A stretch of DNA of 64,000 nt from Clostridiisalibacter paucivorans DSM 22131 (GTDB lineage: Bacteria; Bacillota; Clostridia; Tissierellales; Clostridiisalibacteraceae). Positions 9,062-46,877 of the stretch are shown here, in pieces. The DNA is taken from the NCBI RefSeq assembly GCF_000620125.1, contig NZ_JHVL01000001.1, positions 124,001 through 188,000 of the forward strand, given 5' to 3'. The notes under the pieces are model-generated. The model searched no databases and was not told the DNA's origin. It worked only from the letters and a program-made list of their open reading frames with translations. The position numbers and the translations under genes were made by a program. Each line of letters begins with the position of its first letter. Position 1 is the first letter of the stretch.

Positions 9062-9104
9062 AAATACTTCCTCCTCATATTAACATTTACCTTTTCTATC
9101 CACT

Positions 9105-9350: not shown

Positions 9351-9391
9351 ATCATAACCTTTAAGATTTAAAATTCTACTATTATTTATTA

Positions 9392-10582: not shown

Positions 10583-10616
10583 AATTTTTCTCCTTTGTAT
10601 TTTAAATAATATAATC

Positions 10617-10650
10617 AAAGGTTTCAAAGGAAAATTCCTTTGAAACCTTT
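10617..10650. terminator. inverted repeat between spmB and the MFS gene
   Basis: The 15-bp arms AAAGGTTTCAAAGGA and complement surround AAAT. It lies downstream of spmB and just ahead of the MFS gene. The U-tract on minus is poor, so it may be a terminator or a regulatory hairpin. Confidence 0.6.
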
Positions 10651-10757
10651 AAATAACCTATTTGCATCAAATACCACTTATTGGATTAAGTTCCAATAGC
10701 CTTTATATACATATGAGCAAATATACCATATATAATATACTTAGTCAAGATATACAA

Positions 10758-11291: not shown

Positions 11292-11873
11292 TTAAATTCT
11301 CTCCTTAATTTGCACTATTTTAGTTATTATTATAGCTACAATCGTTGATATAGAAGTAGCTATCAAAGAGGTCCCTATAATATCTGTGGGATTAGATGCA
11401 CCTTCTTGAGCCCTTATCTTCAATACAGTCAAAGGTAATAATTGTACTGAAGACATATTTATAATCAAGAACATACACATGGCATTTGTAGCCCTATCTT
11501 TATATCTATTTAGAGTATTCATATCCTCCATAGCCTTTATGCCAAATGCTGTGGCAGAATTCCCTGCTCCAAACATATTTGCTATTATATTCATTGTTAT
11601 AGATGATATAGCTGGATGCCCCTTTGGTATTTCAGGAAACAATATCCTGATTATAGGACTCAATACTCTGCCAAGATATCTCATAAGTCCAGATTCCTTA
11701 GCTATATTCATAATCCCCATCCAAAAGGCCATAATCCCTGCTAACCCTATAGTAAACTTAATCGCCTCATGGGACTCCCTGAGTATAACTTCATTTACTA
11801 TATCTAATCTATTGGTAACTAAACCAAACATCACAGATAAAAATATGATAAAGAACCATATATGATTTATCAC
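11292..11873 (-). CDS. spmA: spore maturation protein A
   Basis: This is the 193-aa partner of SpmB, with the same Gate/nucleoside-recognition fold. Visible are GLAGIMAFWMGIMNIAKESGL, the conserved NMFGAGNSATAFGIKAMEDM and several membrane helices. The start is a GTG at 11873 after AGAGGTG. Its presence with spmB is direct evidence that the organism makes endospores. Confidence 0.94.
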   Translation of the reverse strand: MINHIWFFIIFLSVMFGLVTNRLDIVNEVILRESHEAIKFTIGLAGIMAFWMGIMNIAKESGLMRYLGRVLSPIIRILFPEIPKGHPAISSITMNIIANMFGAGNSATAFGIKAMEDMNTLNRYKDRATNAMCMFLIINMSSVQLLPLTVLKIRAQEGASNPTDIIGTSLIATSISTIVAIIITKIVQIKERI

Positions 11874-11910
11874 ACAAACACCTCTTTTTAGCTCCTATAA
11901 AACACAATAT

Positions 11911-11950
11911 CTCCAACATCAACTACTAACTATTAACTACTAACTACTAT
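11911..11950. repeat. half-copy of the dispersed TTAGTAGTTAG repeat
   Basis: CTCCAACATCAACTACTAAC and a following TATTAACTACTAACTACTAT match the right arm of the family; no left arm is visible. It lies upstream of spmA. Confidence 0.6.
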
Positions 11951-11973
11951 ATATATATTTTATAAATAAAAAA

Positions 11974-12000
11974 ACATTCCCTTAAACTAACGGGAATGTT
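11974..12000. terminator. terminator after cca
   Basis: On minus, ACATTCCCGTTAGTTTAAGGGAATGT is followed by TTTTTTT. It ends the nurA-herA-cca unit (minus strand). Confidence 0.85.
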
Positions 12001-12095
12001 TTAAAGATGTTGGCGAAATAATTAAATTAAATATAGAGGGTTTCTTCGTTGTGCTACAGACTACCTGCTACGAACTACGTATTATCATCACAAGA

Positions 12096-13511
12096 TCAGA
12101 GAACATTTTTTAAATAATCAATTACAGCATTCTTTCTAGGCGGCACTTTTCCAAGATAGATTGCCTTTTTAGCCTCTCCAATTAATTCTCCTACCTTAAT
12201 TCCTTCATCTATATTGAACTCCGACATAATATCCGTTCCTGTAATAATATGAGATATATCTTCTACATCTTTATATCTAGTCAAATAATTATTTGCCATA
12301 TATTCTATATGGACTTTAAATTTACCCATTTCTTCTTCAGGAAACAAAAGTCTACGAGTAGATACTATATCTGCTAAAGCGACTAATAATACATCCAAAG
12401 TCTCATTTCCACATTTTGTAAACATATCATATAAAAACTCTCCTCCCACATCGTTTGCCTTATATGATACCAATGGAAGCATATGATAATGTACTACTCT
12501 ATACAATATCTCCCTTTCCTTTATGCTTAAAGACCATCTCCTAGCTATATCTCTAATACTTTCTGCACCTGTTACTTCATGACCTCTAAATCTTGTCCTA
12601 CCTGTATTATCTTCCCATTTAGATATAGGTTTACCCACATCATGGAAAAATGCAGCCAATTTTATAAGCTCTAATCTCCTATGTTCTCCAGATATAGTCT
12701 GACTGCTATGTTGTTCATAGGCAGCCCTTAGATGTTCTTCAAAATAACCATTATCATTTATTATATCTTCCATTATCTTCAATGTGAATAATGAATGAGT
12801 AAACACATCTACTACATGATATTCACATCTACCAACTTCTTTCATCCCTGCAACTTCAGGAAATATCTGTTCAAATATATTTAATTCTTCATCCATAAAT
12901 TTAAAATAGTAATGGGTATTGTTGAACTTCAATATCTTGAAAAATTCATTTGCTATACGTTCTCCAGATACAGTGGTAATTTTCGTTTTATTCCTTCTTA
13001 TGGATTCCTTAGATTTACAATCTAATTCAAAATTCATTTGTGCCATAAATCTAACTGCCCTAAGCATCCTTATGGGATCATCTGTAAATGTCTTATCATG
13101 AACAGCCCTTATGACTTTATTTTTTAAATCCTTCTTTCCTCCTAATGGGTCAATAATATTTTTTATGTCTATATCATTAGATACATCTATAGCCATACTA
13201 TTTATGGTAAAATCCCTCTTAGACAAATCTTCATTTATATCTATCCCATCCATATCAGAAAAGTCTACATGAATACCCCGTTGTTTATCAATAACCTTAT
13301 ATACACTATAGGCGTTGTTTAATGACACCACTTTGCCATTTATTGCATTAGCAAAATCATTCACTACATCCTCTATACTCTTATCGACTACCACATCAAT
13401 ATCAGAGCTTTTATCCCCCATAATATAATTTCTTATATATCCACCTACTATATATATCTTTATATCCCTTTCAGTACTTATTTTTTTTAATATCTCAAAT
13501 ATTGTATCCAT
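12096..13511 (-). CDS. cca: CCA tRNA nucleotidyltransferase with HD domain
   Basis: This enzyme adds or repairs the 3' CCA of tRNAs; a poly(A) polymerase role cannot be excluded by sequence. The 471 aa start with the class II nucleotidyltransferase head (IYIVGGYIRNYIMG, catalytic DID at 37-39). The RNA-binding region has DDPIRMLRAVRFMAQM, and a HD phosphohydrolase-type domain follows (AAFFHDVGKP near 287, RGHEVTGAE). It lies 64 nt downstream of the HerA-like gene. The ATG follows GGGGTGATTTAA. The SRP/tRNA-Ser locus of this window encodes its CCA. Confidence 0.9.
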   Translation of the reverse strand: MDTIFEILKKISTERDIKIYIVGGYIRNYIMGDKSSDIDVVVDKSIEDVVNDFANAINGKVVSLNNAYSVYKVIDKQRGIHVDFSDMDGIDINEDLSKRDFTINSMAIDVSNDIDIKNIIDPLGGKKDLKNKVIRAVHDKTFTDDPIRMLRAVRFMAQMNFELDCKSKESIRRNKTKITTVSGERIANEFFKILKFNNTHYYFKFMDEELNIFEQIFPEVAGMKEVGRCEYHVVDVFTHSLFTLKIMEDIINDNGYFEEHLRAAYEQHSSQTISGEHRRLELIKLAAFFHDVGKPISKWEDNTGRTRFRGHEVTGAESIRDIARRWSLSIKEREILYRVVHYHMLPLVSYKANDVGGEFLYDMFTKCGNETLDVLLVALADIVSTRRLLFPEEEMGKFKVHIEYMANNYLTRYKDVEDISHIITGTDIMSEFNIDEGIKVGELIGEAKKAIYLGKVPPRKNAVIDYLKNVL

Positions 13512-13575
13512 TTAAATCACCCCTATTCCCTGATATATATCCTATAACCTAATGTATACCCCAAAATATATAATT

Positions 13576-15420
13576 TTATTTATTAGTATCTTCATAGGAA
13601 ATACAAAATGCAGTTTTCCTCATTTTAAGTTTGCCTTCTTCTACTAATGTTTCTAGTCTTGTTTTTAAAGTATCTATATCTAGATTAATCCCCTGTTCCT
13701 CTATCTCCATTAATACCTCTGACATATTAAGCTCTGTAATAGGTAATTTACCCTTTATAAGATCATAGAATGCATTTTGTTCCATACCTTTTCTCTCTTC
13801 CAACTCTTCAAAGGGATTTAATGTATGGGGACTAGATGTTATTGCTGCTCTAACTCTTATGGCCAAAGTTCTTCCCATTATTGCAGAAGATATAAATGCA
13901 TCTCCTGATTTTAAATATGGTAACCTTTTTGCCTCTTCTGGAGTTAAATCTGTCTCTTCTCGTATGGTCTGTATATCTGAACTCCTCACAGTCCTAAATA
14001 CTAATTTGCTATTTAACTGTGCAGTTATAGTTTCATCTAATAATGTAGGTCTCTGAGTAGCTAATATCAAAAATACGCCATATTTTCTACCCTCCTGAGA
14101 TATCTCTTTCAATATAGACTTTGAAGGAGATTCGTAACCCTTGGGAGCAAAATTATGGGCTTCATCAGTAGCTATTATAAACGGTGGAAAATATTTCTCA
14201 TTTATATTTCTGTATTGGGCATCTTTAAATGCCCTCCTTTTATGGTACAAATTATTGAGAAGATAAGTAGAAAAAACCTGTAAAAGCCTCATATTCCCCT
14301 GTATTACTATGAGCTTTGTACTACTTATGCCATCTATTATAGCAGATATATCATTGCTAAATACTCCATCATTATAAAGCCTTACCAATCTCCATACTAT
14401 TCCCTTAACAGAGCTTGGAGGACATGTTTTGTCATACTTATCAAAGAGATCTCTGCACATCTTCCATCTATCTCTTTCAACTGAAGATTTGGCGCTATTT
14501 ATCATGCTATCTATCTTAGCTGTAGAACCTAAGTCTTGTCCCTCTGACAACATCTTCAATCTATCATAAAAACTCTGATATGAGTCCCTGCTCTTATGGA
14601 GAATATCCACAACATTACTCATAGCATCGGACAATCTTCCAGATGCATCTAAAAGATTTTTAAGATCCCCAGTGGATAAATCAGTAAATTTTACTCCCAC
14701 ATCATATCCTATTTGAAGGCATTTGAATCTATGGGAAAAATCTTCTTTGTATTCATCATCCATATATGAAGCCATTGTAGAAAAGTCCATCTCAAAATGT
14801 GGATCCAATACTATTGTTGGTATTTTAAGCTTCATAGTTTCTTCTAAAATCACCCTCATACCAAAAGATTTTCCAGAGCCAGACCCACCAAATATACCTA
14901 TATGGGGATACTGATTCATGCTCTTTATATCAAATATAAACGGTATCCCATTTTGTTTTATCAGTGAACCATCTTCAAATAAAGGTGCTATCCCTCTAAG
15001 CTTTTCATCCATATCTTCTGTCATCTTATCGGAACTCTTTATTACCCCTATTACTGCACCATCATCTGGCATAGTCTTAACCAAAATATGTTTTACCTCA
15101 GAAAATAATGGGGGTCTAACATCTGACCCTGTCTCTACAGGATATTGTGCCTCATTTAAAAGCCTTACTTTAGCTATATGGATTGTTTCATCATCTATAC
15201 TATATCCTATGGCCTTTAAAGACTCCATCACTGATGAATCCACCATACCCCCATCTATATTTAATGGAATATACCTATTATAGGAACTGGTTTCAACCAC
15301 TTCTCCCATCAAATCTCCTTGAAGCTTGTCTGCTATTATGAGCATCTCATTTATCCTAAAGGGGCGTTTATTGGAACCTATATACACTTCTTGTTGAGTT
15401 GTAATACCTACTACCTTCAT
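13576..15420 (-). CDS. herA: HerA-like DNA-translocating ATPase (DUF87)
   Basis: The 614 aa have an N-terminal HAS-barrel-like region (1-100), Walker A GGSGSGKS (178-185) in a FtsK/HerA RecA fold, Walker B with FIIATDEAHNFAPKG (about 420-435) and the downstream ATQRPTLLDETITAQLNSKLVFR motif. A C-terminal winged-helix-like tail follows. HerA forms hexamers that pump DNA and pair with NurA nuclease for end resection in archaea. Here NurA is encoded directly upstream (20-nt gap), so the two probably act as one complex. It acts in the cytoplasm on DNA ends. Confidence 0.88.
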   Translation of the reverse strand: MKVVGITTQQEVYIGSNKRPFRINEMLIIADKLQGDLMGEVVETSSYNRYIPLNIDGGMVDSSVMESLKAIGYSIDDETIHIAKVRLLNEAQYPVETGSDVRPPLFSEVKHILVKTMPDDGAVIGVIKSSDKMTEDMDEKLRGIAPLFEDGSLIKQNGIPFIFDIKSMNQYPHIGIFGGSGSGKSFGMRVILEETMKLKIPTIVLDPHFEMDFSTMASYMDDEYKEDFSHRFKCLQIGYDVGVKFTDLSTGDLKNLLDASGRLSDAMSNVVDILHKSRDSYQSFYDRLKMLSEGQDLGSTAKIDSMINSAKSSVERDRWKMCRDLFDKYDKTCPPSSVKGIVWRLVRLYNDGVFSNDISAIIDGISSTKLIVIQGNMRLLQVFSTYLLNNLYHKRRAFKDAQYRNINEKYFPPFIIATDEAHNFAPKGYESPSKSILKEISQEGRKYGVFLILATQRPTLLDETITAQLNSKLVFRTVRSSDIQTIREETDLTPEEAKRLPYLKSGDAFISSAIMGRTLAIRVRAAITSSPHTLNPFEELEERKGMEQNAFYDLIKGKLPITELNMSEVLMEIEEQGINLDIDTLKTRLETLVEEGKLKMRKTAFCISYEDTNK

Positions 15421-34833: not shown

Positions 34834-35106
34834 CTATAACACATATTTAATTATCAATAAGAGTATGACCCCTGGAACTCCTAAAAAGCCTACTACCAAT
34901 GCTGTAATAGGATTTATACCCAAAGATATACCAAAAAAACCCCCTACTATATTTATTAAAAATAAAGCAACACCACCTATTAGTCCGTTTATTATGAGCT
35001 TGAAAATATATTTAAGGGGAACAATAAGAATCATACCTAATACATAGAGTAATATTAGACCAAAGGCATAAGCAAATATAACACTAAGCTCAATTCCCAT
35101 ACCCAA
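34834..35106 (-). CDS. bofA: pro-sigma-K processing inhibitor BofA family
   Basis: The 90-aa two- or three-helix membrane protein is of the BofA type (VPLKYIFKLIINGLIGGVALFLIN, GINPITALVVGFLGVPGVILLLI). In Bacillus it holds SpoIVFB inactive until the late mother-cell stage. The best-spaced start is a TTG at 35106 (AAGGTGG site); an ATG lies at 35100. With yaaL it is the end of the ancestral dnaX-ebfC-recR-yaaL-bofA cluster, now split. Confidence 0.9.
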   Translation of the reverse strand: MGMGIELSVIFAYAFGLILLYVLGMILIVPLKYIFKLIINGLIGGVALFLINIVGGFFGISLGINPITALVVGFLGVPGVILLLIIKYVL

Positions 35107-35270
35107 ATAACACCACCTTCTTCTTAGCTCTTAGTTCTTAGTTCTTAGCTCTTAGTTCTCAGTTCTTAGTTCTTAGCTCTTAGTTCTCAGTTCTTAGCTC
35201 TTAGGGGGCACTAGCGCCCACCTTCTTTCCTGAGAACTAGGATCTAAGATCTAAGAACTACTTTTACCAA
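35107..35270. repeat. TTCTTAGCTCTTAG tandem and inverted repeat
   Basis: From 35121 to 35203 the words TTCTTAG, CTCTTAG and TTCTCAG alternate in tandem. At 35231-35260 the reverse sense appears (GAGAACTAGGATCTAAGATC then TAAGAACTA), so the whole can fold back. It contains no gene. The rest of the gap up to 35462 holds dispersed-repeat copy 4. Confidence 0.8.
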
Positions 35271-35340
35271 AAACTATCTTTGTCCTTACTAATAATATAT
35301 ACCCTTTTCTCTATAAATAGAACAGTAGCAAGTATAAAAT

Positions 35341-35439
35341 AAGTTAGTAGCTAATAGTTAGTAGTTCTTAGTTTTATGATGAAATCCTTCGGATTTCCAC
35401 CATCAACTACTAACTACTAGCTACGAACTACTAACTTTT
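35341..35439. repeat. dispersed TTAGTAGTTAG inverted repeat, copy 4
   Basis: The left arm is AAGTTAGTAGCTAATAGTTA, the centre ATGATGAAATCCTTCGGATT then TCCACCATC, and the right arm AACTACTAACTACTAGCTAC ending in CTAACTT. It lies between bofA and yaaL. Confidence 0.8.
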
Positions 35440-35462
35440 TTATACCTTTATAAAATTAATCG

Positions 35463-35768
35463 CTATTGTTCCATTAATATATATTTTGCCTTGCTATTTT
35501 CTCTTTTCAACTTCTTTAAGAAATAAATGTATTTAAGTCTAGCTGCTTCCATACTATATATAGCGTGGTCTACTAAATCTGGATCGGTAACATTTTCAAA
35601 ATAAATCTGGGCTATCTTCCATTCTTTGTATGCATTTCTCAAAGAGGTAACATCATCTTTTTCTTTGTCAGTATCAAATATAATTTTATTTTTCAACACT
35701 TTCAGTATATCTAATCTACTCTTCTCCCGAACTTTTTCTTCATTATTTTTAGATAGAGATTCTTCCAT
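35463..35768 (-). CDS. yaaL: YaaL/DUF2508 protein
   Basis: From the ATG at 35768 (101 aa, GGGGG site 7 nt before) the protein is helical and charged. The DUF2508 block (SLRNAYKEWKIAQIYFENVTDPDLVDHAIYSMEAARLKYIY) fills residues about 40-85. Function is unknown; in other Firmicutes it sits between recR and bofA, here 10 kb away from recR. Confidence 0.87.
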   Translation of the reverse strand: MEESLSKNNEEKVREKSRLDILKVLKNKIIFDTDKEKDDVTSLRNAYKEWKIAQIYFENVTDPDLVDHAIYSMEAARLKYIYFLKKLKRENSKAKYILMEQ

Positions 35769-35837
35769 ATTCATTCCCCCAATATCAATAATTTGACTTC
35801 TCCTTTTATTTATAATTATTGACATAGGTAGGATGTT

Positions 35838-37550
35838 TTATTCGTATATTCCAATACCTTCCTTAACTAGTTTTTTTGTATAACTATTGACTGGATTAGA
35901 AAATATATCTGAAGCCAATCCATATTCTACTATTTTGCCTTTATTCATCACATATACTATATCTGCAATCTTTCTAGCAATAAATAAATCATGGGTTATA
36001 TACAACATAGCAAACCCCTTCTTATTTTGCAGCCCTTTTAAAAGCCGCAGAATATTTGCCTGTGTAGAAGGGTCCAACATAGAGCTTATCTCATCAGCTA
36101 TCAATAGTCTAGGCTCCATCACTAATGCCCTAGCCAATGCTACCCTTTGCCTTTGACCTCCACTCAACATATGACATTTTCTAGATAAAAAACTTTCATC
36201 AAATGGCAGTTGAACATCCTGCAATGCATTTTTTGCCTTTTCTTCTCGATATTCATGACTACCGTCTTTTATTATATTTAATGGTTCCATTATAGCCTCT
36301 TTTATAGTGAACCTATCATTTATAGCAGAAAATGGATCTTGAAATACTATCTGTACACCTTCTTTCCGACTAGTTACATTATGTTTTGAAACTTTAGTAC
36401 CTTCAAATAATAATTCTCCATCATCCCATGGTAATATCCCCGCTAATATACTGGCCAAGGTAGTCTTTCCAGATCCTGATTCCCCTATAAGTGCTACTAC
36501 TTCTCCCCATCTTATCTTCATGCTACATTTATTACAAGCCCTTATTATTTCGCCTTTAAATTTATAAGACTTTTCTACACCTTTACCTTCAAGCAATGTA
36601 ACTATTCCACCTCTATTACATGCAACCTGTCGTTCCACCGATACATAATGAAGTTCTGGTTTCTTAGTCTCACATAATTCTAACTTTTGAGTACACCTTT
36701 CATAAAAAGGACATCCTAACTTTCTAAGTGCTCCAGATTTTCCTGGTATTCCCCACATATCACGATAGGGATTAATTGAAGGGGATGCATTTAGTAGCCC
36801 TCTAGTGTAAGTATGCATAGGATCTTTTATAATTTCACTGGTAATCCCCTTCTCTATTATACATCCAGAATACATAACATTGGTTCTAGATGTGAGTTCA
36901 GAAATAGTTTCTATTTCATGGGATATTACTATTAATGCAAAGCCCTGCTCCTTATGAAGTCTTGAAATCAAATTTCTGATGTCTCTTTTAGACACAGCAT
37001 CTAAGGCTGTTGTAGGTTCATCTACTATAAGTAAATCAGGGTTACACGCAAGTGCCATTGCTATAAGTGCCCTTTGCCTCATACCACCTGACAATTGATG
37101 GGGATAATATTTCCTCCATTGTCTATCAAGGCCTACCATATCCATTAAATCCACTACCCTTTTATATCCCTCTTTTTCTGAAATATTTAGATGCTTATAG
37201 ATGACCTCATATATTTGCTCTTGTATAGTTAACAGAGGATTCAATACATCTAAACTATTTTGAAAAACTATAGATATATTATTCCATCGAATACTATTTA
37301 GTTTATCCTTAGATAATCTGTTCATATCTTTGCCCTCATAATAAATATGGCCTCTTATATCACTTGGTGATTCTATAAGACCCATTATTGCCATCGCCAA
37401 AGAAGTCTTACCACTACCTGACTCCCCTATAATACCTAAGCTATCTCCTCTATTAAGAACAATATTTACATCCCTAACGGCATCAATAGTTTCTTTATCC
37501 AATTTATATTTCACTGAAAGATCTTCTATCTTTAATAATGAGCTATCCAT
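35838..37550 (-). CDS. fused two-domain ABC ATPase of nickel/peptide importer type
   Basis: The 570 aa contain two ATPase cores in one chain. The first (about 1-310) has GESGSGKTSLA, LSGGMRQR and the oligo-HPY Cys block CPFYERCTQ...C...C. The second (about 320-570) has GESGSGKTTLA and LSGGQRQRVALARAL. In most dpp/nik/opp systems these are two genes (DppD and DppF). The fused form is the last cistron of a cobalamin-riboswitch operon, so it probably drives uptake of cobalt or a corrinoid, by inference. Confidence 0.92.
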   Translation of the reverse strand: MDSSLLKIEDLSVKYKLDKETIDAVRDVNIVLNRGDSLGIIGESGSGKTSLAMAIMGLIESPSDIRGHIYYEGKDMNRLSKDKLNSIRWNNISIVFQNSLDVLNPLLTIQEQIYEVIYKHLNISEKEGYKRVVDLMDMVGLDRQWRKYYPHQLSGGMRQRALIAMALACNPDLLIVDEPTTALDAVSKRDIRNLISRLHKEQGFALIVISHEIETISELTSRTNVMYSGCIIEKGITSEIIKDPMHTYTRGLLNASPSINPYRDMWGIPGKSGALRKLGCPFYERCTQKLELCETKKPELHYVSVERQVACNRGGIVTLLEGKGVEKSYKFKGEIIRACNKCSMKIRWGEVVALIGESGSGKTTLASILAGILPWDDGELLFEGTKVSKHNVTSRKEGVQIVFQDPFSAINDRFTIKEAIMEPLNIIKDGSHEYREEKAKNALQDVQLPFDESFLSRKCHMLSGGQRQRVALARALVMEPRLLIADEISSMLDPSTQANILRLLKGLQNKKGFAMLYITHDLFIARKIADIVYVMNKGKIVEYGLASDIFSNPVNSYTKKLVKEGIGIYE

Positions 37551-37562
37551 AATCCACCTCTT

Positions 37563-38399
37563 TTACAGTTTATCATCTAATATCCTTTCGAGATCTCTAC
37601 TTATAAATGAAATAGCAAGAACCAATAATATAATAGCCATTAGTGGGCTAATAACCCACCATTTCCAATAATCAGTAAAATATATACCTTGAAAATTTAT
37701 GGCATGGTTAAGTATCAATCCCCAACTCTTTGATGTGGGATCTCCTAATCCCAAAAAAGATAGTCCTGCTTCAGCTACTATTGACTTACTGGTAAGTTTT
37801 ATAACTGTTACTAGTAAAATAGGCAATACCCCTGGCACAAAATGTTTCACCAGAAGATGTGTAAAGCTAGCACCATAGCTTTGGGCTGCCACAATATAAT
37901 TTTCACTTTTCATAGCCATTATTTTAGATCTAACTATCCTGGCAGGAGTTGTCCATGAAAATAATGCCAACACTATTATAATATTTTTAGTACTTGGTCC
38001 GAAAAAGGCACCTAATAATATCATCATCGGCAAATCGGGTAATACTAACATTATGTCAGTCATTCTCATAATAACCCTATCTACAGTACCTCCAAAATAT
38101 CCCGATATCATTCCTAATATTCCCCCTCCAAACCCTGCTATCATAGAAGCAGAAACCCCTATCAATACACTGAGTTTAGCACCAAAGCATATCTGTGACA
38201 ATAAATCGATTCCCAAATCATCTGTACCTAACCAATGCTCCTCATTAGGGTGCTCTAAAGACTGCCCCGAAGGTAAATTATATGGATATGGATACATATA
38301 TTGGGAAAATAGTCCTATAAGTATGATTATCACTATAAACAACATAGATACCTTCCCAATACTAGTAAATTTATTAAACCATAAAAACACATCTCTCAT
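37563..38399 (-). CDS. ABC permease, OppC/DppC/NikC family
   Basis: The 278-aa permease has about six helices, an N-terminal OppC_N segment, LGTDDLGIDLLSQICFGA and the EAA loop EAGLSFLGLGDPTSKSWG. It starts 12 nt before the ATPase gene and 1 nt after the other permease. It forms the membrane heterodimer. Confidence 0.94.
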   Translation of the reverse strand: MRDVFLWFNKFTSIGKVSMLFIVIIILIGLFSQYMYPYPYNLPSGQSLEHPNEEHWLGTDDLGIDLLSQICFGAKLSVLIGVSASMIAGFGGGILGMISGYFGGTVDRVIMRMTDIMLVLPDLPMMILLGAFFGPSTKNIIIVLALFSWTTPARIVRSKIMAMKSENYIVAAQSYGASFTHLLVKHFVPGVLPILLVTVIKLTSKSIVAEAGLSFLGLGDPTSKSWGLILNHAINFQGIYFTDYWKWWVISPLMAIILLVLAISFISRDLERILDDKL

Positions 38400-39371
38400 C
38401 TAATTCACCCTCGGATCAATTTTTTTATATATTATATCTGCTAAAAGATTCATAATTAATACAGTAAAAGTTACAAATAAAAATATGCCTTGGATTAAAG
38501 TATAGTCCCTGACCATAACTGCTTCCCTCATGAGTCGCCCCAATCCTGGGTAGTTAAATACATTTTCTACTAATATAGCTCCTCCAAAAACTCCTCCCAG
38601 ACTTAAAAATATCCTAGTTATAACAGGTAACATAGCATTTTTAAGTGCATGTTTAAATATAATAGTTCTATCCCTTAGACCTTTAGCCTGGGCAGTCTTC
38701 ATATAGTTTTTAGTAAGAACTGATATCATACTATTTCTTGACAATAAGTAAAATCCTCCTACCCGCGATAAGGACAATGCCATAACAGGGAGTAAACCAT
38801 GATGTATAACATCTAATATCCTTTCTACAATATTGTCATACTGTGCAAAAACTGTCATACCTCCTGACAATGGAAAAAGTCCAGTTTTAGCTGCTAATAT
38901 AAACAGCAGTAACACAGCTATTAGAAATGCTGGAATTTCGGAAAATATTATCATGACGGAATATATGGTTTTATCAATCCAACCCTTTCTATTCCATGCA
39001 GAAAAGGCACCTATAACAGTACCAATAGAACTACTTGCTATTATGGATATAATCACTATTCCCAATGTCCATATGGCCCTCTTAAGTATTATAGATAACA
39101 CTAAGTCATTATAATAAATGCTATATCCAATATTGCCTCTAAACATATTTACTATATAGTTTTTATATTGTTCTCTCAATGGTTTGTCTAATCTATAATA
39201 AGACTTATACATATCTATCTGTTCCTGTGTATATGTATAGTTTACGCTCCCTTCCTCAGACGAGAGAAAGGTAAAGGGGTCCCCAGGCATTAACCTGGGG
39301 ATGAAAAAGTTTAATGTTATTATAACTAAGAATGTAATTGCATACTCTACAATCTTTTTTGAAATCTTCAT
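38400..39371 (-). CDS. ABC permease, OppB/DppB/NikB family
   Basis: The 323 aa have about six helices, FFIPRLMPGDPFTFLSSEEG after the first helix (family mark) and FKHALKNAMLPVITRIFLSLGG as the EAA loop. I use the ATG at 39371; a TTG three codons upstream is also possible. It follows the binding-protein gene directly. Confidence 0.93.
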   Translation of the reverse strand: MKISKKIVEYAITFLVIITLNFFIPRLMPGDPFTFLSSEEGSVNYTYTQEQIDMYKSYYRLDKPLREQYKNYIVNMFRGNIGYSIYYNDLVLSIILKRAIWTLGIVIISIIASSSIGTVIGAFSAWNRKGWIDKTIYSVMIIFSEIPAFLIAVLLLFILAAKTGLFPLSGGMTVFAQYDNIVERILDVIHHGLLPVMALSLSRVGGFYLLSRNSMISVLTKNYMKTAQAKGLRDRTIIFKHALKNAMLPVITRIFLSLGGVFGGAILVENVFNYPGLGRLMREAVMVRDYTLIQGIFLFVTFTVLIMNLLADIIYKKIDPRVN

Positions 39372-39381
39372 TATTTCCAAC

Positions 39382-40944
39382 TCATTCCATTTCTAAATAA
39401 GATATTTTATTATGGGTTACTTCATGGTGGTTAAATACATGCTTCCAATTATCATATTTTGCTGGCCTAAATACAGTATATGTTGCAGTATTGTACAGTG
39501 GTATTTGAGGAACTTCCTCTGCTATGACCTCTTGAAGTTGATAAATTATATCTCTTCTATCATCTGAATTGAGTTCCAATAATTGTGACTTGCATAATTC
39601 ATTTATCTTATCATTATTATATCCTGGGATTCCTCCAATAAATGTAGATTTTGTATCATCTTTTCCATAGGCATATTGCTCCCTTAATATATCTGCATCA
39701 TTTCCCCAACCCCCATGGCCAATAAGTACCATTTCATAATCTCCATTTTTTACTGCAGCATCTCTAGATTTTTTATCTATACTCTTTATCTCTAAATCAA
39801 TGCCCACTTTTTCAAGACTTAATTTGATTAGTTCTCCAATTCTAACTTCCTTATTATCATTACCAGTTAATAATGTGAATTTGTATTCTTTATTTTCTAA
39901 TAGCTGTTTAGACTTATCTAAATCAAACCCATATTGCTTAATATTTTTATTATACCAGATATGATCTACTGGCAAATAACCTGCACTGGCAGGCTTAGCA
40001 GCTCCCCTTGCAACCTTTTCTATGAGTTCACCTTTATCTATACCGTAGGCCATAGCCTGTCTTAAATTTTTGTTTTTAAGTTCGGATCTCTTTTCCATAT
40101 TAAACATAATTCTATATCCCCAAAATGCAGGGTCATTTATAACTTTATATTGGGAATCATTTTTATATTTATTTAATATATCAGGTGTAACTTCTGTTAT
40201 ATCTATATCTCTCTTTTCAAAGGCCAATATAGTATCACTCACAGGCACAAATTGAATTATATCTGCCTTCTGTTTAGGTCCCCAATAATCATTAAATGCT
40301 TCAAATTTATATGCACCTTGCTCCTTGCTATATTCTTTAAGTATATACGGTCCACATCCTATAACTGCCTCAGGACCATTGAATTTTTTAGGGTCTTCTA
40401 CATCTTTCCATATATGTTTAGGTATAATCCTTGCTGCTCCAAATCTATTCAACAAAGTTGCATTGGGTTCATTTACATTTATGCTAATATTGTGTTCATC
40501 TATTACATTTATCTCGTTTATAAAATTGTCCTTACTTATATTTAATTCATCTGAGACTGGTGGATATTCAGCGTAGTATTCAAAGGAAAACTTTACATCC
40601 TCTGCTGTCATAGGCTGACCATCCTGCCATTTAACTCCTTCTCTCAATTTAAAGGTGTATGTTTTTCCATCTTCACTTACTTTCCAGTCTTCAGCAAGCC
40701 AAGGTATAAAGCCTTCTTCTCCTCGCTCTAATAAACTGTCAAATATAAGTCTCATCTTATATGCACCAGGACCCCTAGAATAATGGGCATAAGGACTAGG
40801 ATATCCCCAATCTCCCCCTTCAAGATTCAATACTACTTCTTCATTATTATTCCCATCTACATTGGTTACTTCTCCATTGCCACATCCCGAGAGAATCATC
40901 ATAAATGCCATTGTCAAAATCATTAGTTTATATATTTTCTTCAT
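39382..40944 (-). CDS. SBP_bac_5-type solute-binding lipoprotein
   Basis: The 520 aa have a lipoprotein signal with LSGC (Cys21) and the family 5 layout (LAEDWKVSEDGKTYTFKLREGVKWQDGQPMTAEDVKFSF). The ligand could be a metal chelate, nickel, cobalt or an oligopeptide; the signature does not tell. It sits 1 nt downstream of the methyltransferase gene in the riboswitch operon, so cobalt or a corrinoid-related compound is inferred. It acts at the outer face of the membrane. Confidence 0.92.
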   Translation of the reverse strand: MKKIYKLMILTMAFMMILSGCGNGEVTNVDGNNNEEVVLNLEGGDWGYPSPYAHYSRGPGAYKMRLIFDSLLERGEEGFIPWLAEDWKVSEDGKTYTFKLREGVKWQDGQPMTAEDVKFSFEYYAEYPPVSDELNISKDNFINEINVIDEHNISINVNEPNATLLNRFGAARIIPKHIWKDVEDPKKFNGPEAVIGCGPYILKEYSKEQGAYKFEAFNDYWGPKQKADIIQFVPVSDTILAFEKRDIDITEVTPDILNKYKNDSQYKVINDPAFWGYRIMFNMEKRSELKNKNLRQAMAYGIDKGELIEKVARGAAKPASAGYLPVDHIWYNKNIKQYGFDLDKSKQLLENKEYKFTLLTGNDNKEVRIGELIKLSLEKVGIDLEIKSIDKKSRDAAVKNGDYEMVLIGHGGWGNDADILREQYAYGKDDTKSTFIGGIPGYNNDKINELCKSQLLELNSDDRRDIIYQLQEVIAEEVPQIPLYNTATYTVFRPAKYDNWKHVFNHHEVTHNKISYLEME

Positions 40945-40945
40945 T

Positions 40946-41746
40946 TTACACCCTCCATATCATCCAACCTATTTTGGCTTTAGTATTTTCTACTATAATA
41001 CCATCTTTGGATATACTATTTAAATAATTTTTTATGTCATATACTATCTGAGGTTCTTCTTTAATATGTACAGTATACACATTTATCGCATCTTCTAATC
41101 TCCTCTTATTTTCCCATTGCACATCCCTATAATATATCTCAGGGTATATACCCAATTGCCATAATATATTAAATGCACAGTACATCTTAATTCCCCAATT
41201 ATTAATATATTTGCCTTTAGAGGATAATCTATTTATAGTATCCCTTACCTCGTCCTCTCTAGTCACAAAACCACTTAAAAAACAATATCCTTTACTAGCT
41301 TCATTCATCTTTACTAAAGTATCCTTACTATCTATTGCTGGAGACATAGATGCAAATACAAGGTCAAATCTATTATTCCATGCCCTTTGATTTAAATCTA
41401 TATGCTGCCACGGTACTGCATCAAAGGAAATATTCCTTATATTTAATTTTTCTGCATTCTCTCTAGCATACTTAATCATATTGGGAGATATATCTATACC
41501 TGTTACATATTTTGACTTTTTCGAAAATTCTACGCTATATTTACCAGGCCCACAACCTATATCTAATATCTCTGATGATTTATTGACTATATTTTTAGAT
41601 AACAAGAACTCTATTACCTCATCCATTCTAGCATTTTTATCCTTGCCATTAAATTCCTTTGCCCTTAAATCCCATACATCTTTAGTAGCTGATAAATTCA
41701 TATTTGAAGATTCTCGCCACATATCATCAAAAGTTTTTATATCCAC
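40946..41746 (-). CDS. class I SAM methyltransferase, first gene of the cobalamin-riboswitch operon
   Basis: The 266-aa enzyme has SAM motif I (ILDIGCGPGKYSVEF, about residues 61-75), VTGIDISPNM and the acidic post-I segment. The C-terminal part is family-typical of small-molecule methylases but the substrate is unknown. I take a GTG at 41746, 8 nt after AAGGAG; a GTG nine bases upstream is too close to the site. The link with the ABC importer suggests modification of a metallophore, the cargo, or a regulator. That is inferred. Confidence 0.88.
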   Translation of the reverse strand: MDIKTFDDMWRESSNMNLSATKDVWDLRAKEFNGKDKNARMDEVIEFLLSKNIVNKSSEILDIGCGPGKYSVEFSKKSKYVTGIDISPNMIKYARENAEKLNIRNISFDAVPWQHIDLNQRAWNNRFDLVFASMSPAIDSKDTLVKMNEASKGYCFLSGFVTREDEVRDTINRLSSKGKYINNWGIKMYCAFNILWQLGIYPEIYYRDVQWENKRRLEDAINVYTVHIKEEPQIVYDIKNYLNSISKDGIIVENTKAKIGWMIWRV

Positions 41747-41774
41747 TTTACCCACTCCTTTTTAGATAAGAATA

Positions 41775-41820
41775 AAACTAAAAGACACCTCAATAAAACA
41801 GTTAAGAGGTGTCTCACATT
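41775..41820 (-). terminator. riboswitch-controlled terminator
   Basis: On minus, AGACACCTC/GAGGTGTCT (41783-41814) is followed by TTTTAGTTTTAT. It lies between the cobalamin aptamer and the first gene, as an expression platform. Confidence 0.85.
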
Positions 41821-41867
41821 TCAAAAATCATTAAAACGTAATAAAACATACCCCCCTATCTTCCGTA

Positions 41868-42050
41868 GAGTTCCTGGCACATGATATAGGCAGGTCTTCT
41901 GACTTAAGAATCATAGTTTTTCCATACCTTCCCGAAGATCAGTGGTAATAACTTGGAAAAACTCCTCTAATACAGCGGCGGGACCGTGCAGGCATCTCAC
42001 CTGTCTTCCCTTTTCATAGATATCTTAAAAATAATATCTAAACCTATACC
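41868..42050 (-). promoter_or_regulatory. cobalamin riboswitch
   Basis: On minus the aptamer reads ...GACAGGTGAGATGCCTGCAC, GGTCCCGCCGCTGTA, then ACCACTGATCTTCGGGAAGG and AGTCAGAAGACCTGCC. These are the expected conserved blocks (B12 box region and the GCCxCTG-type motif, here ACCACTG). It is followed by a terminator stem. Binding of B12 would switch off the methyltransferase/ABC operon. The whole 41756-42159 gap is this leader, its promoter and the peroxiredoxin terminator. Confidence 0.92.
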
Positions 42051-42075
42051 CATTTATTAACTTATCGTTAAATTA

Positions 42076-42104
42076 ATAATATATTATGGGCATATGTATG
42101 TCAA
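42076..42104 (-). promoter_or_regulatory. promoter of the cobalamin-riboswitch operon
   Basis: On minus, TTGACA (42099-42104), a 17-nt spacer and TATTAT (42076-42081) lie upstream of the aptamer. Confidence 0.8.
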
Positions 42105-42116
42105 GAGCAATTAGAA

Positions 42117-42146
42117 AAGGGATATTTCACTATGAAATATCCCTTA
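42117..42146 (-). terminator. terminator after the peroxiredoxin gene
   Basis: AAGGGATATTTCA/TGAAATATCCCTT; on minus it is followed by TTTCTAATTG, so the U-tract is modest. Confidence 0.75.
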
Positions 42147-42159
42147 GTTTTTATATCAC

Positions 42160-42825
42160 TTATTTTAAATCCTTATAGCAGAACCACCAGTCTAAACACT
42201 CTATCTCTCCAGACTCTGCCTTTTTAAGTCTTTCCTCTACTAATTCTTCAGTACCAGCAGGAGGTATTATTACCTTTTCCCCTATCAATGGGTTATTTGG
42301 CCAATTTTCAGGTACTGCTACTCCATTATTATCCGATGTCTGTAATGCCTTTACTGCTCTTAAAACTTCGTCTACACTTCTTCCTATCTCTTGTGGATAA
42401 TACATCATAAGCCTTAAAATTCCTTTATCGTCTACTATAAATACTGCCCTTACAGTATTAGTTCCCTTGCTCTCATGTAACATACCTAATTTATTAGAAA
42501 CTCTACCCAATTCATCTGCTATAACAGGGAATGGTACCTTTACATCTGTTTTTTCATTAATCCATTGTACCCATTTTATATGAGAAAATACTTGGTCTAC
42601 AGATAATCCTATAAGCTCTGTATTTAATTTCTTGAATTCATCTGCTTTCTTAGCAAAGCTTACAAATTCAGTAGTACAAACTGGAGTAAAGTCCCCTGGA
42701 TGACTAAATAATACAAACCATTTCCCTTTATAATCTTCTGGTAATTTCTTTACTCCATGGGTAGTATTGACCTCCATTTCTGGAAATGCATCTCCTAATA
42801 ATGGTAATTTGTTTTGTTTTTCCAC
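42160..42825 (-). CDS. peroxiredoxin, Prx6/archaeal AhpC type
   Basis: The 221 aa have the peroxidatic Cys in [15 protein letters not shown] (about 48-52) and Arg near RAVFIVDD. The C-terminus contains CLDWWFC, two Cys like those of archaeal decameric Prx6-type enzymes. It reduces peroxides in the cytosol. Two PerR-like boxes cover its start region (42892-42923), so hydrogen peroxide induction is likely. Confidence 0.93.
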
Positions 42826-42891
42826 AAAAATCTCCTCCTTATATTTTATAAATAATATATTTTAATCTAATTCATATTAGACATATGTAAT

Positions 42892-42957
42892 TTGTAATTA
42901 TTCTTAATTTGTAATGATTACATTTTTAATTATAGTTCAATTATTTTCCTTTGTCAA
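42892..42957 (-). promoter_or_regulatory. peroxiredoxin promoter with two PerR-like boxes
   Basis: A perfect minus-strand promoter (TTGACA 42952-42957, 17-nt spacer, TATAAT 42929-42934) is followed by TTGTAATGATTACAT (42909-42923) and TTGTAATTATTCTTA (42892-42906). Each differs from the Bacillus Per box TTATAATNATTATAA at three positions. The first starts 5 nt after the -10, which fits repression. Confidence 0.75.
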
Positions 42958-42998
42958 GTGTTATTGATAATATTTATCAAAATTATTTTTTAAAAAAA

Positions 42999-43069
42999 AT
43001 AGTTAGTAGTAAGTAGTTTAATGATGAAATCCATAGGATTTCTACCATCAACTACTAACCACTAACTAT
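42999..43069. repeat. dispersed TTAGTAGTTAG inverted repeat, copy 5
   Basis: ATAGTTAGTAGTAAGTAG, TTTAATGATGAAATCCATAG, GATTTCTACCATCAAC, TACTAACCACTAACTAT in order. Confidence 0.85.
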
Positions 43070-43101
43070 TACCTACTGACTCATTATATACTTTCTTAAA
43101 T

Positions 43102-43347
43102 TCAAAACCTATGTCTCATATATCTATACAAAAATACTATAGCTATAGATATTAAGACTAATATTACAATAAAATTCGTATTATTACTAGTTGTTAAAAA
43201 TATAGCTGTGGGACCATCAGCTCCCCCTATTATGTCTACACTAGCACGAGTAGTCATATATGTTGATATCAAATTGGCAATTATAATACACAAAAATAAG
43301 AATAATAGACATTTTATAAAATTATTTATATTCAATAATTTTTTCAT
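43102..43347 (-). CDS. mini-protein with the GGADGPT motif of Na+-translocating decarboxylase beta subunits
   Basis: The 81 aa have two membrane helices (about 10-30 and 58-75) around SVDIIGGADGPTAIFLTTSN. The IIGGADGPTAI(F/Y) block is the hallmark of the beta subunits of oxaloacetate, glutaconyl-CoA and methylmalonyl-CoA decarboxylase Na+ pumps, which are about 400 aa long. There are no such subunits nearby. It lies 31 nt downstream of the flavodoxin gene. Either this is a separate small-protein family or a relic of a beta subunit; the intact frame and own site (GGAGATAAGTAT) favour the former. Confidence 0.75.
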   Translation of the reverse strand: MKKLLNINNFIKCLLFLFLCIIIANLISTYMTTRASVDIIGGADGPTAIFLTTSNNTNFIVILVLISIAIVFLYRYMRHRF

Positions 43348-43378
43348 ATATACTTATCTCCTTAGACCTTTCACGTTT

Positions 43379-43921
43379 TTATTTATTAAGGCCTTTAATA
43401 TACATAATCAATGGCTCTATTGCATCTATATTTGTAAAATCAACCTTCTTTCCATATGATTCTAACATATCTTTATCATCTTTAGACATTTCATCAGGTT
43501 TTTTCTTAGAAACTATTTTTTTAAGCATTGCCATCATAGCCTTATGGGTAAAACTTAGATTCTTATAATCAATTCCACCCCGAAAGTGAAAAAACTTTAT
43601 TCTTTCTGCCATTCCATTTGAGAAATTCTTTTCAATAATTGGCTTAAAGATATCTATATCGTCTGTAGATGCAAGACCCACTGTAAAAACAATGATATTT
43701 TTATCCTTCAGTCTCTCAAAATTTTTAGTTATAATAGATACTCCATTAATCCCACTGGCATAAAGTCCGCCCCCAAAAATTACTGTATTATATAGTAATA
43801 AATCTTTAATTTCAACCTCTGAAACCTCAAGCAGATCTCCATGGGATTCATTAGCTATCCACTGTGCATATTTTTTTGTGCTACCATATTTGGATTTATA
43901 TATAATTGCAATTTTGTTCAT
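43379..43921 (-). CDS. flavodoxin-domain protein (HemG-like)
   Basis: The 180 aa start MNKIAIIYKSKYGSTKKYAQWIA, the FMN-binding flavodoxin_5 type (phosphate loop SKYGSTKKYA), with GGGLYASGI. I use the ATG at 43921 (AAGGGGG site); another ATG two codons upstream is too close. The HemG-like group can reduce quinones, protoporphyrinogen or be stand-alone; which one is open. It is inside the 43.1-45.9 kb membrane-protein operon. Confidence 0.85.
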   Translation of the reverse strand: MNKIAIIYKSKYGSTKKYAQWIANESHGDLLEVSEVEIKDLLLYNTVIFGGGLYASGINGVSIITKNFERLKDKNIIVFTVGLASTDDIDIFKPIIEKNFSNGMAERIKFFHFRGGIDYKNLSFTHKAMMAMLKKIVSKKKPDEMSKDDKDMLESYGKKVDFTNIDAIEPLIMYIKGLNK

Positions 43922-43941
43922 ATACATCCCCCTTAAATCTT

Positions 43942-44493
43942 TTATCCTTTTTTTAAATCTTTATCAAATGTATTTCTAAAACCATAGGTCATCACCATCA
44001 GATATATCCTCAACACAATAAATATAATACCTACTAAAATATGCAAATATGTTATGTTGAACATAAGTGTAAAGTTCAATAATATAAGATTAGTTATTGA
44101 AACTACAGTATAAAATCTCAGCTTTTTTATACACTCATTAGCCCATTCTTCATAATCGTTATTGTTAAAATATTCTATAGAACCCTCAATATATTTATAA
44201 AACATAATTACTTCCATTACAGTATAAAACACTATTAATAATTGACTAAATATAGAAAATCTCATTGCTTGAATGGATAAAAAAAATCCAATAAAGGTTC
44301 CAATGACTGTCATTATTCCAAAAATTTTAGCCCTATTAAATGATTCTATATGGGTATGTCTGTATAAAGAACCCATTCCACTTAATATAATCATAAACCC
44401 TATAAACCCTGGTAATATCTTTATCATTCCTAATTTTATATTGAATGTTGCAATAAATATCCCCCAAAATATTTTATTATATCCATTATACAT
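43942..44493 (-). CDS. multi-pass membrane protein of unknown family
   Basis: The 183 aa hold five to six hydrophobic segments (IFWGIFIATF, GFIGFMIILSGMG, FGIMTVIGTFIGFFLS, LLIVFYTVMEVIMFY, TVVSITNLILLNFTLMF, LHILVGIIFIVLRIYLMV) and a basic C-terminus. It starts 1 nt downstream of the preceding gene and is followed by flavodoxin (20 nt). No family was recognised. Confidence 0.75.
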   Translation of the reverse strand: MYNGYNKIFWGIFIATFNIKLGMIKILPGFIGFMIILSGMGSLYRHTHIESFNRAKIFGIMTVIGTFIGFFLSIQAMRFSIFSQLLIVFYTVMEVIMFYKYIEGSIEYFNNNDYEEWANECIKKLRFYTVVSITNLILLNFTLMFNITYLHILVGIIFIVLRIYLMVMTYGFRNTFDKDLKKG

Positions 44494-44494
44494 A

Positions 44495-45394
44495 TTAGAT
44501 TGCCCCCCTTGCCCTCAAATAGTTAAATATACCCTTCAAGTCAAAATCATAAGGGGTATAATCTATATTATATATCCTCTCATATGCTTTTTCTCCATTT
44601 TTATCTTGATAATATAGTTTGGGCTTTATGTCATAGAAAGTATATCTTCCTAATATATTTTCTGGCGTTTTAAATTTAGTATATATACTCAAGGTCTGAT
44701 TTTGTTTGCATTTAATTCCTGAAATCTCCCTATAATCAATATCTCCTATGGAAATATCCAGATAATCCTTTAAATCTTCTAATAGTGGAGACCTAATATC
44801 CAATAATTCTATATCCTTTTCTACATTGCCATGAAAAGACGATGTCCCATCGGAAGAACTGCTAGAACTTATAGATGTTATATTATTACTTCTTCTTTCA
44901 TCTCTATATATTATTATCCTTCCTAGATCAACATCTATTGTACTTCTATCATTGAATTCTATATGGGCATTGTTAAGCTCAATTTCATAGTTTTCCCTAT
45001 CTATATTGTTTAGATCTATCTTAAGATACAATGTTCGAAGTACATATCTTCCATATATATCTTCCCTTTGATTGTTATTGCTATTATCAAAAAAAGAGAA
45101 TCCCCCTCCTCCAAAGGGCTGATGGGAAACAAGGACTTCAATATTAGGTTCCTCTTCAAAGTATATATCTGTAACCTTTCTATCATCGGATAAATTAGTT
45201 ATATATTTAAGTTCAATCCTATCTACCATATTATAATTTTTATTGCTAGATACATATTCTTCAACATACATCTTCAAAAACACAGGATTATCCAGTCTAT
45301 ATATTATTACAAATCCAACTGTAAAAATTAATGACAGTACAATTAGGAATAACCCAAACCTCAATATCTTTCTATTCAATTCCAATATATTCAC
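44495..45394 (-). CDS. single-pass exported protein of unknown function
   Basis: The 299 aa have one N-terminal membrane segment (about 12-32, FGLFLIVLSLIFTVGFVIIY) and an external beta-rich domain with a low-complexity Ser linker (SISSSSSSDGTSSF). Its gene lies between two multi-pass membrane protein genes (6 nt and 1 nt), so a joint envelope complex is plausible. No known domain was recognised. Confidence 0.75.
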   Translation of the reverse strand: MNILELNRKILRFGLFLIVLSLIFTVGFVIIYRLDNPVFLKMYVEEYVSSNKNYNMVDRIELKYITNLSDDRKVTDIYFEEEPNIEVLVSHQPFGGGGFSFFDNSNNNQREDIYGRYVLRTLYLKIDLNNIDRENYEIELNNAHIEFNDRSTIDVDLGRIIIYRDERRSNNITSISSSSSSDGTSSFHGNVEKDIELLDIRSPLLEDLKDYLDISIGDIDYREISGIKCKQNQTLSIYTKFKTPENILGRYTFYDIKPKLYYQDKNGEKAYERIYNIDYTPYDFDLKGIFNYLRARGAI

Positions 45395-45400
45395 ATCCTA

Positions 45401-45940
45401 TTACAGTATATTTTCTCTTAGTATTTTATCTACATATTCAACTTTATCTTCAGATACTTTTATATCGTATTCTTCATCGTTATAATGAAGGATAATCTCA
45501 TACTTTCTCTCTTTTTTCCATTCAAAAGAATTAATATTAATAAATTCCAATGCTTCTCCATGATATACTAATCCATTATCATAAAAATACACTCTTCTGT
45601 CATCATTTAAAAAATTTAATAGTATCAAAGGAATAATTATAATTATAAAGCCATCAAATTCTTCATAAAATCCCTTAGTAATCATTAAACGAATGTTTAT
45701 AATTGCTAAAATGATGGAAAGTATTGCTATACTACATTTAGAAATATTAGCTATTATAGTTCTATGTATATAATAATCAGGTTTTGGTAAGGTCTTTTTG
45801 TTTAATATTGTAATAATCAAATCTATCCATAATACAGCTGCTACTATACAAACAGCCATAACATTGTCTCTATAAAATATGTATACAATAAAAAGTAATA
45901 TTATAAAAAATATAGATAATACATCTTTTAACTTCCCCAT
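45401..45940 (-). CDS. membrane protein with C-terminal PH-like domain (DUF5673-type)
   Basis: From the ATG at 45940 (179 aa, site GAGGGGGATATGAT) there are four to five helices, then a cytoplasmic RVYFYDNGLVYHGEALEFINI...YEIILHYNDEEYDIKV domain like bacterial PH/DUF5673 proteins. The protein at 6454-6990 has the same plan. It is the first gene of an uncharacterised five-gene unit. Confidence 0.75.
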   Translation of the reverse strand: MGKLKDVLSIFFIILLFIVYIFYRDNVMAVCIVAAVLWIDLIITILNKKTLPKPDYYIHRTIIANISKCSIAILSIILAIINIRLMITKGFYEEFDGFIIIIIPLILLNFLNDDRRVYFYDNGLVYHGEALEFININSFEWKKERKYEIILHYNDEEYDIKVSEDKVEYVDKILRENIL

Positions 45941-46084
45941 ATCATATCCCCCTCTTAAATATATTTCTATTTTATTATAGACATCAATAATAATTATATC
46001 ATAGCAATAAAAAGACATATCAAATATATTTTATGTTAAAAAAGCAGGAGACTTTTATAGAGTTTTTCAAAAATAAATAAAAAA

Positions 46085-46114
46085 CATGCTGTTAAAGATA
46101 TCTTTAACAGCATG
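46085..46114. terminator. terminator of the dnaX-ebfC-recR unit
   Basis: CATGCTGTTAAAGAT/ATCTTTAACAGCATG, followed on minus by TTTTTTATTTATTTTT. Confidence 0.9.
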
Positions 46115-46192
46115 CTTTTGATAAAACTTTGTTTTCAGTTATAAATTTTTATTTGTAATGAAAGAAGTTTATTTTCTTTTTAAAAGGCCTTT

Positions 46193-46795
46193 CTATATAT
46201 CCCTACGCCCCTCCAATGCCTTGGACAGAGTTACCTCATCTGCATATTCTAAATCTCCTCCAACTGGTATACCATGGGCTATTCTTGTGGTCTTTATCCC
46301 TAAGGGTTTTATGAGTTTAGATATATACATAGCCGTGGCTTCTCCCTCTATTGTGGGATTAGTCGCTAATATTATCTCTTTTATATCTTTACTTTCCCTT
46401 ATTCTATTTAACAACTCTTTGATTTTTATCTGTTCAGGCCCTATGCCTTCCATGGGTGATATACTGCCATGGAGGACATGATATAGTCCATTGTATTCTC
46501 TTATTCTTTCCATGGCTATTACATCCCTAGGGTCCTCTACCACACATATGGAGGTTTGATCTCGCTTCTTATTTCTACATATATTACAAGGATCTATATC
46601 AGTAAGATTAGTGCATATACTACAATACTTTATATTCTTCTTTGCACTTACTATAGCCTTTGCCAAATCATTGGCATTGGATTCACTCATATTTAATACA
46701 TGAAATGCCAATCTCTGGGCTGTTTTTTTCCCTATCCCCGGCAATTTAGAAAATTCTTCTATAAGTTTAGCTACAGGCGCTGCAAGGTAATCCAT
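46193..46795 (-). CDS. recR: recombination mediator RecR
   Basis: RecR clamps DNA with RecO and loads RecA. The 200 aa from ATG 46795 (AGAGGTGAAATT site; longer frame rejected) have a helix-hairpin-helix ([13 protein letters not shown]), a zinc finger [16 protein letters not shown] and Toprim [12 protein letters not shown]. It is 82 nt downstream of ebfC. Confidence 0.96.
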
Positions 46796-46877
46796 AATTT
46801 CACCTCTTGAGAGCATAATACATACCAAAATTTTGTAATATTAAAATCACACTAAAGGTATATCTTACGCTAAATTT

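Follow-up and report, generated by a model that had tools for sequence, protein, structure and literature searches.

The stretch of DNA analysed (the window) comprises 64,000 nucleotides of contig NZ_JHVL01000001.1 from Clostridiisalibacter paucivorans DSM 22131 and carries an operon on its minus strand in which a promoter, a cobalamin riboswitch and a terminator precede five genes for a methyltransferase and an ATP-binding cassette (ABC) importer. A sequence-only reading had proposed the promoter and terminator as well as five tightly packed cistrons with these domains, and all were recovered, with intergenic gaps of 1, 1, 0 and 12 bases. The features, in order of transcription, were as follows:

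42076 to 42104, minus strand: sigma-70 type promoter, TTGACA-17-TATTAT, with 11 of 12 consensus positions (a loose TTGACA/TATTAT pattern is expected about two times by chance in a region of such size)
41872 to 42062, minus strand: cobalamin riboswitch aptamer (RF00174, 108.5 bits, E 3e-26, full model)
about 41836 to 41865, minus strand: candidate antiterminator segment, predicted to pair with the 5' arm of the terminator (duplex -15.8 kcal/mol)
about 41782 to 41815, minus strand: intrinsic terminator hairpin of 10 pairs (-15.3 kcal/mol), with a T tract to about 41774
40946 to 41746, minus strand: class I S-adenosylmethionine (SAM)-dependent methyltransferase, family motif [AS]SM[ST]PAI (AlphaFold model with a predicted local distance difference test score, pLDDT, of 89)
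39382 to 40944, minus strand: SBP_bac_5 substrate-binding lipoprotein (PF00496, E 9e-82; lipobox LSGC)
38400 to 39380, minus strand: permease 1, BPD_transp_1 (PF00528, E 2e-44; ATG at 39371 is also a possible start)
37563 to 38399, minus strand: permease 2, BPD_transp_1 (PF00528, E 3e-19)
35838 to 37550, minus strand: fused double ATPase of 570 amino acids, with a Cys-containing oligo_HPY domain between its two nucleotide-binding domains
35463 to 35825, minus strand: DUF2508 (YaaL-like) open reading frame (ORF; PF10704), 12 bases after the ATPase gene

The Rfam search matched the leader across model positions 1-189 and scored far above the RF00174 gathering score of 31.5 bits, confirming an aptamer that had been placed at 41868 to 42050 from the letters alone. 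The layout of the leader is the usual one of a transcription-terminating riboswitch, with a switching platform predicted by pairing energies, in which the computed competing pairing is about as strong as the terminator (-15.8 versus -15.3 kcal/mol). Cobalamin riboswitches with a terminator/antiterminator layout switch transcription off upon binding a corrinoid, and from this established behaviour we infer that the element acts as an OFF switch. Statements on riboswitches here and below rest on RF00174 searches only, as a quick B12-box pattern caught 10 of 12 known riboswitches along with false matches.

By its parts, an SBP_bac_5 protein, two BPD_transp_1 permeases and OppD/F-type ATPases, the importer belongs to the peptide/nickel (Opp/Dpp/Nik) ABC class, whose members import peptides or small chelates. 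Walker A and signature motifs are complete in each half of the fused ATPase. Among family profiles for the substrate-binding protein (SBP), Lmo0135 and DppA scored above NikA. The methyltransferase ORF was listed from 41755; however, the GTG at 41746 is the more likely start because AAGGAG lies 8 bases before it (41760-41755) and relatives of the protein begin with MDI. The protein has a Rossmann methyltransferase fold with motif I present, and its model showed an ordinary small-molecule methyltransferase fold in Foldseek/VIA-align comparisons (best Z 19.4, root-mean-square deviation 2.8 and 179 residues aligned with UbiG 5dpm, many others being tied). No substrate was indicated by the model comparison, with its tied scores among many small-molecule methyltransferases, or by family searches, and no metallophore synthesis gene is present in the operon; the earlier proposal that the methylase modifies a metallophore is thus unsupported. 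Scored against CpaM (NF043040, corrinoid protein-associated methyltransferase), the protein reached 53.7 bits compared to a curated cut-off of 180.

Cassettes orthologous to that of the window are spread over the Firmicutes, many of them with the same methyltransferase. Around 30 relatives of the window SBP above 390 bits were found in other genomes of the phylum sample, with more at 280-310 bits. They share a motif near the N terminus (D[WY]GYPxP...RGPG) and most share a second near the C terminus (DHHxxTHNKLSY). The methyltransferase adjoins approximately 12 of the relatives above 390 bits, and FmdE takes its place next to the SBP in L201, L202, L204, L209 and L212-L214 (L-numbers are labels of the genomic neighbourhoods compared), with L201 and L202 also holding a different small methyltransferase and an energy-coupling factor (ECF) S component (L201 scanned). 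A cobalamin riboswitch heads the gene block in 9 of the 35 cassettes tested. Six of these are among the 18 methyltransferase-bearing cassettes (riboswitch in the window, L050, L082, L164, L174 and L219; others tested L044, L045, L069, L161, L175, L178, L182, L185, L191, L195, L199 and L217), and three (L208, L210, L211) are among the 17 loci without the methyltransferase (L201-L216 and L218, some of which end early at contig ends). At a density of about 6 riboswitches in 3.2 Mb, the chance expectation for a riboswitch within 1.5 kb is approximately 0.0014 per cassette. This estimate is rough: the genomes are relatives of one another, the loci were not sampled blind, and the L174 cassette is separated from its switch by cobalt genes. 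The gene order of the window (riboswitch, methyltransferase, SBP, two permeases, ATPase) recurs in L164 and L219, and L050 and L082 (Tindallia) have the order riboswitch, SBP, ATPase, two permeases, methyltransferase. L191 fits less closely, having separate ATPases and a distant SBP.

Two lineages place the cassette beside riboswitch-controlled CbiM genes. In L174 the order, assigned by Pfam and RF00174, is riboswitch, CbiM, PDGLE (CbiN-like), DUF3842, SBP, two permeases, ATPase, methyltransferase, riboswitch, CbiM, CbiQ, ABC ATPase and CbiJ, and its close relative L178, of the same genus label, has the same cassette and trailing riboswitch. L211, with a family label different from that of L174, has two riboswitches, the cassette, a UbiE-like small methyltransferase, a riboswitch, an ABC ATPase, a riboswitch and CbiM. 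The methyltransferase gene also lies between riboswitch-headed CbiM-like and CbiMNQO-like genes in L081 (Desulfosporosinus), as read by eye and not by Pfam. As a separate observation, L211 contains five cobalamin riboswitches, all on the same strand, in a region of under 16 kb surrounding the Nik-type cassette and CbiM (1349-15409).

The operon's riboswitch is one of 12 in the host genome. Another, on contig 10, heads a long operon of cobQ, cbiB, cobD, cobU, cobS, cobC, cbiA, cbi genes, haem-precursor genes and a CbiMNQO set, in which ORFs were read by eye and CbiM (Pfam, 196 bits) is the sole family-confirmed gene. Given this cbi/cob operon with CbiMNQO under another riboswitch, the host very probably makes B12, by the anaerobic route, and already owns a cobalt importer. 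Other host riboswitches precede genes resembling NrdD, CobT, and DUF4430/SLH surface proteins with ECF-type ABC genes. No second copy of the methyltransferase was found in the host genome at E 1e-20, and FmdE is present in it, but alone. Giant secreted proteins of 1819, 1916 and 2242 amino acids are encoded behind cobalamin riboswitches in the host (L076, 5042-12708; L077, 1073-16879); the two scanned contain SLH or DUF4430 domains, and these proteins are possibly surface corrinoid catchers. Two very similar cobalamin riboswitches (64.6 and 59.4 bits) stand in tandem on host contig 44 (L077, 17104-17596).

Given the riboswitch with its predicted terminator/antiterminator and the recurrence of related cassettes behind cobalamin riboswitches and beside CbiM in two lineages, which is what links the importer to cobalt, the operon is probably a B12-repressed high-affinity cobalt importer, most likely one that takes a small organic chelate. 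We infer cobalt as the cargo from gene context, and the chelated form is likewise an interpretation. With plentiful corrinoid the aptamer would be bound, the terminator would form and the operon would be silent, whereas under corrinoid shortage the antiterminator would form and the operon would be transcribed. The lipoprotein would then capture a cobalt complex for import by the two permeases and the fused ATPase, and the cobalt would feed the anaerobic cbi/cob pathway alongside CbiMNQO. The presence of CbiMNQO in the same genome suggests a division of labour, with that system serving free Co2+ and the operon serving chelated cobalt. For the cargo, the sequence-only reading had named cobalt, a cobalt chelate or a corrinoid-related compound; the riboswitch control and the cobalt link hold, and the corrinoid is the main rival.

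Several results weigh against cobalt import. With CbiMNQO already encoded, the host has no strict need of a second cobalt importer. The sequence of the SBP has no power to tell a metal chelate from a peptide, and its AlphaFold model, built from three sequences, was poor (pLDDT 38). In 26 of the 35 orthologous cassettes there is no riboswitch at the head; these may carry other cargo, and their recognised neighbours are usually FmdE or the methyltransferase. Finally, the L208 cassette is in an apparent operon with a TrmO-domain protein, a BtuF-like protein and a TonB receptor that scores best against the B12 receptor family (240.7 bits, below the cut-off of 599.7), a context that also fits corrinoid import.

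That the operon imports a corrinoid or corrin precursor, such as cobinamide, cobyric acid or another incomplete corrinoid for salvage, is unlikely on balance and is the strongest of the alternatives. Some members of the same transporter class (DppABCDF/HbpA) carry haem, and cobalamin riboswitch control would suit a corrinoid cargo. The L208 neighbours point the same way, as does the host itself, where no Peripla_BP_2 gene shares a contig with a riboswitch, so that no BtuFCD route controlled by the switch came to light. However, the other riboswitch-driven DUF4430/SLH surface proteins with their ECF-type ABC genes resemble a corrinoid uptake route, and L174 and L211 link the cassette to CbiM and not to corrinoid salvage.

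It is quite unlikely that the importer serves another B12-linked nutrient, nickel or a mixture of metals, with the riboswitch recruited for reasons besides cobalt supply. The riboswitch upstream of the NrdD-like (anaerobic ribonucleotide reductase-like) gene in the host, identified by eye, offers a parallel, and riboswitch-less cassettes are widespread and often lie beside FmdE; against this, riboswitch-linked cassettes recur in a cobalt-gene context. It is very improbable that the operon encodes an ordinary peptide importer that came under riboswitch control, its methyltransferase being unrelated: the family 5 SBP is nearest by profile to peptide binders, but the methyltransferase is adjacent in many lineages, the riboswitch is found again with cassettes of differing gene order, and no peptide-utilisation genes were seen beside the cassettes. 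The earlier reading had named orthologous operons lacking the riboswitch and tied to peptide utilisation as evidence against its proposal; riboswitch-less operons are indeed the majority, whereas no peptide-utilisation operon was seen among the neighbours annotated, which were not all of the neighbours.

A cobalt importer of this kind is not an undescribed system, as had been supposed. Zhang et al. (2009; PMC2667541) treated NikABCDE-family importers behind a B12 riboswitch in C. tetani and D. hafniense as exceptions to nickel specificity and predicted them to be Co-specific. These are likewise peptide/nickel-class ABC importers directly behind a cobalamin riboswitch in Clostridia, and passages of that paper on them mention neither a methyltransferase nor a fused ATPase, both of which occur in the window operon. 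The importer kind was thus already predicted and its methyltransferase partner is apparently unreported; no description of the methyltransferase in cobalt operons was found in the open-access literature, which leaves out most subscription papers, so that a prior report is possible. In Sinorhizobium meliloti, CbtJKL is an ABC importer behind an adenosylcobalamin riboswitch and is reported to carry Co(II) (reviewed in PMC7689651); its binding protein is BtuF-like, whereas that of the window is SBP_bac_5, and the account in that review mentions no methyltransferase.

The window operon shares with NikABCDE, the E. coli nickel importer, an SBP_bac_5 protein, two BPD permeases and two ATPase domains. 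The window proteins were below the family cut-offs for NikA (160 versus 393), NikB (157 versus 447) and NikC (165 versus 358); the ATPase, fused where NikD and NikE are separate, passed the cut-offs for both, and the operon differs in the addition of the methyltransferase and the cobalamin riboswitch. CntABCDF, the staphylopine importer, is a metal-chelate importer of the same class, but the window proteins were far below its cut-offs (CntA 159.5 versus 800, CntC 150.7 versus 440) and their operon differs in having no metallophore synthesis gene. A search of the host genome for an opine (staphylopine) dehydrogenase gave no match, and nor did control genomes. CbiMNQO also imports cobalt for B12 and belongs to the same regulon in the host, but is of the ECF type and encoded on another contig. 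The corrinoid importer BtuFCD requires a Peripla_BP_2 binding protein, whereas the window SBP is a PF00496 protein.

The methyltransferase was found in 22 of 391 genomes of the class sample at E 1e-15 (the host included, the others being 26-47% identical) and in 61 of 398 genomes of the phylum sample at E 1e-40. A genome scan with the methyltransferase alignment drew generic SAM-motif matches, and only L081-L088 were useful. Almost half of the methyltransferase relatives (36 of 76) share one same-strand block with a metal-type importer, comprising 18 Nik-type, 17 FecBCD-type and 1 Znu-type, and 15 of these blocks also contain FmdE (PF02663). The remaining 40 had no importer block by the strict rule, although some were borderline, such as L161 with its cassette in convergent orientation. 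A maximum-likelihood tree requires 11 changes of the Nik label, and well-supported branches force at least 7 of them, indicating that the partnership of methyltransferase and Nik-type importer was made or lost several times. Riboswitch-linked methyltransferases occupy four places on this tree (the window; L164 with L050 and L082; L219; L174).

This partnering with different importer types argues for a methyltransferase that handles imported metal complexes and not one that builds the corrin ring. A corrin-ring (CbiT-like) enzyme was set aside, as the protein also accompanies FecBCD and non-riboswitch systems. Our guess, a doubtful one, is that it acts in the cytosol on the imported ligand and thereby helps to release the metal. 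A broader proposal, more speculative still, is that anaerobes have a general step in metal import in which, after uptake by any ABC system (Nik-, FecBCD- or Znu-type), a SAM-dependent enzyme devoted to the task releases or commits the metal, either by methylating its ligand or by acting on the metal directly; in the window this step would be part of a B12-controlled cobalt supply.

E. coli and Proteus carry a distantly related methyltransferase (20-22% identity) in an operon for a metal-type importer, with genes for an SBP, permease, ATPase, this methyltransferase, ModD and a TonB receptor, which we take to be the prrA-modD-yc73-fepC cluster; it differs from the window operon in its FecBCD-type importer, ModD and outer-membrane receptor. 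ModD adjoins the methyltransferase in Clostridium ljungdahlii (L083, near 9001-9816) as well as in the E. coli and Proteus records (L042, L043), and so in two phyla. In L053 (5343-15629, minus strand) a cobalamin riboswitch heads genes for a NifH-like protein (PF00142), a nitrogenase-component-1-like protein (PF00148), two FecBCD-type importers, FmdE and the methyltransferase. In L067 (8626-11200) a methyltransferase gene lies behind a cobalamin riboswitch and ahead of FecBCD genes; this methyltransferase gene is split in two around a reverse-strand ORF of 485 amino acids that is probably a mobile element.

If the cobalt reading is right, B12-making Clostridia would have a testable second cobalt route besides CbiMNQO, and the operon would draw attention to a methyltransferase family found alongside several unrelated metal-importer classes, with a distant relative in an Enterobacterales cluster. 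Finding the target of the methyltransferase could account for the opening of imported metal chelates inside the cell.

The DUF2508/YaaL-like gene that follows the ATPase gene may be co-transcribed with the operon and is probably unrelated to it in function. Across 34834-46828 of the window, recR (46193-46828), the DUF2508/YaaL-like gene (35463-35825) and BofA (34834-35106) are in the same order as in B. subtilis. Approximately 10 kb containing the riboswitch operon and peroxiredoxin and flavodoxin genes splits recR from the other two, which suggests that this stretch was inserted.

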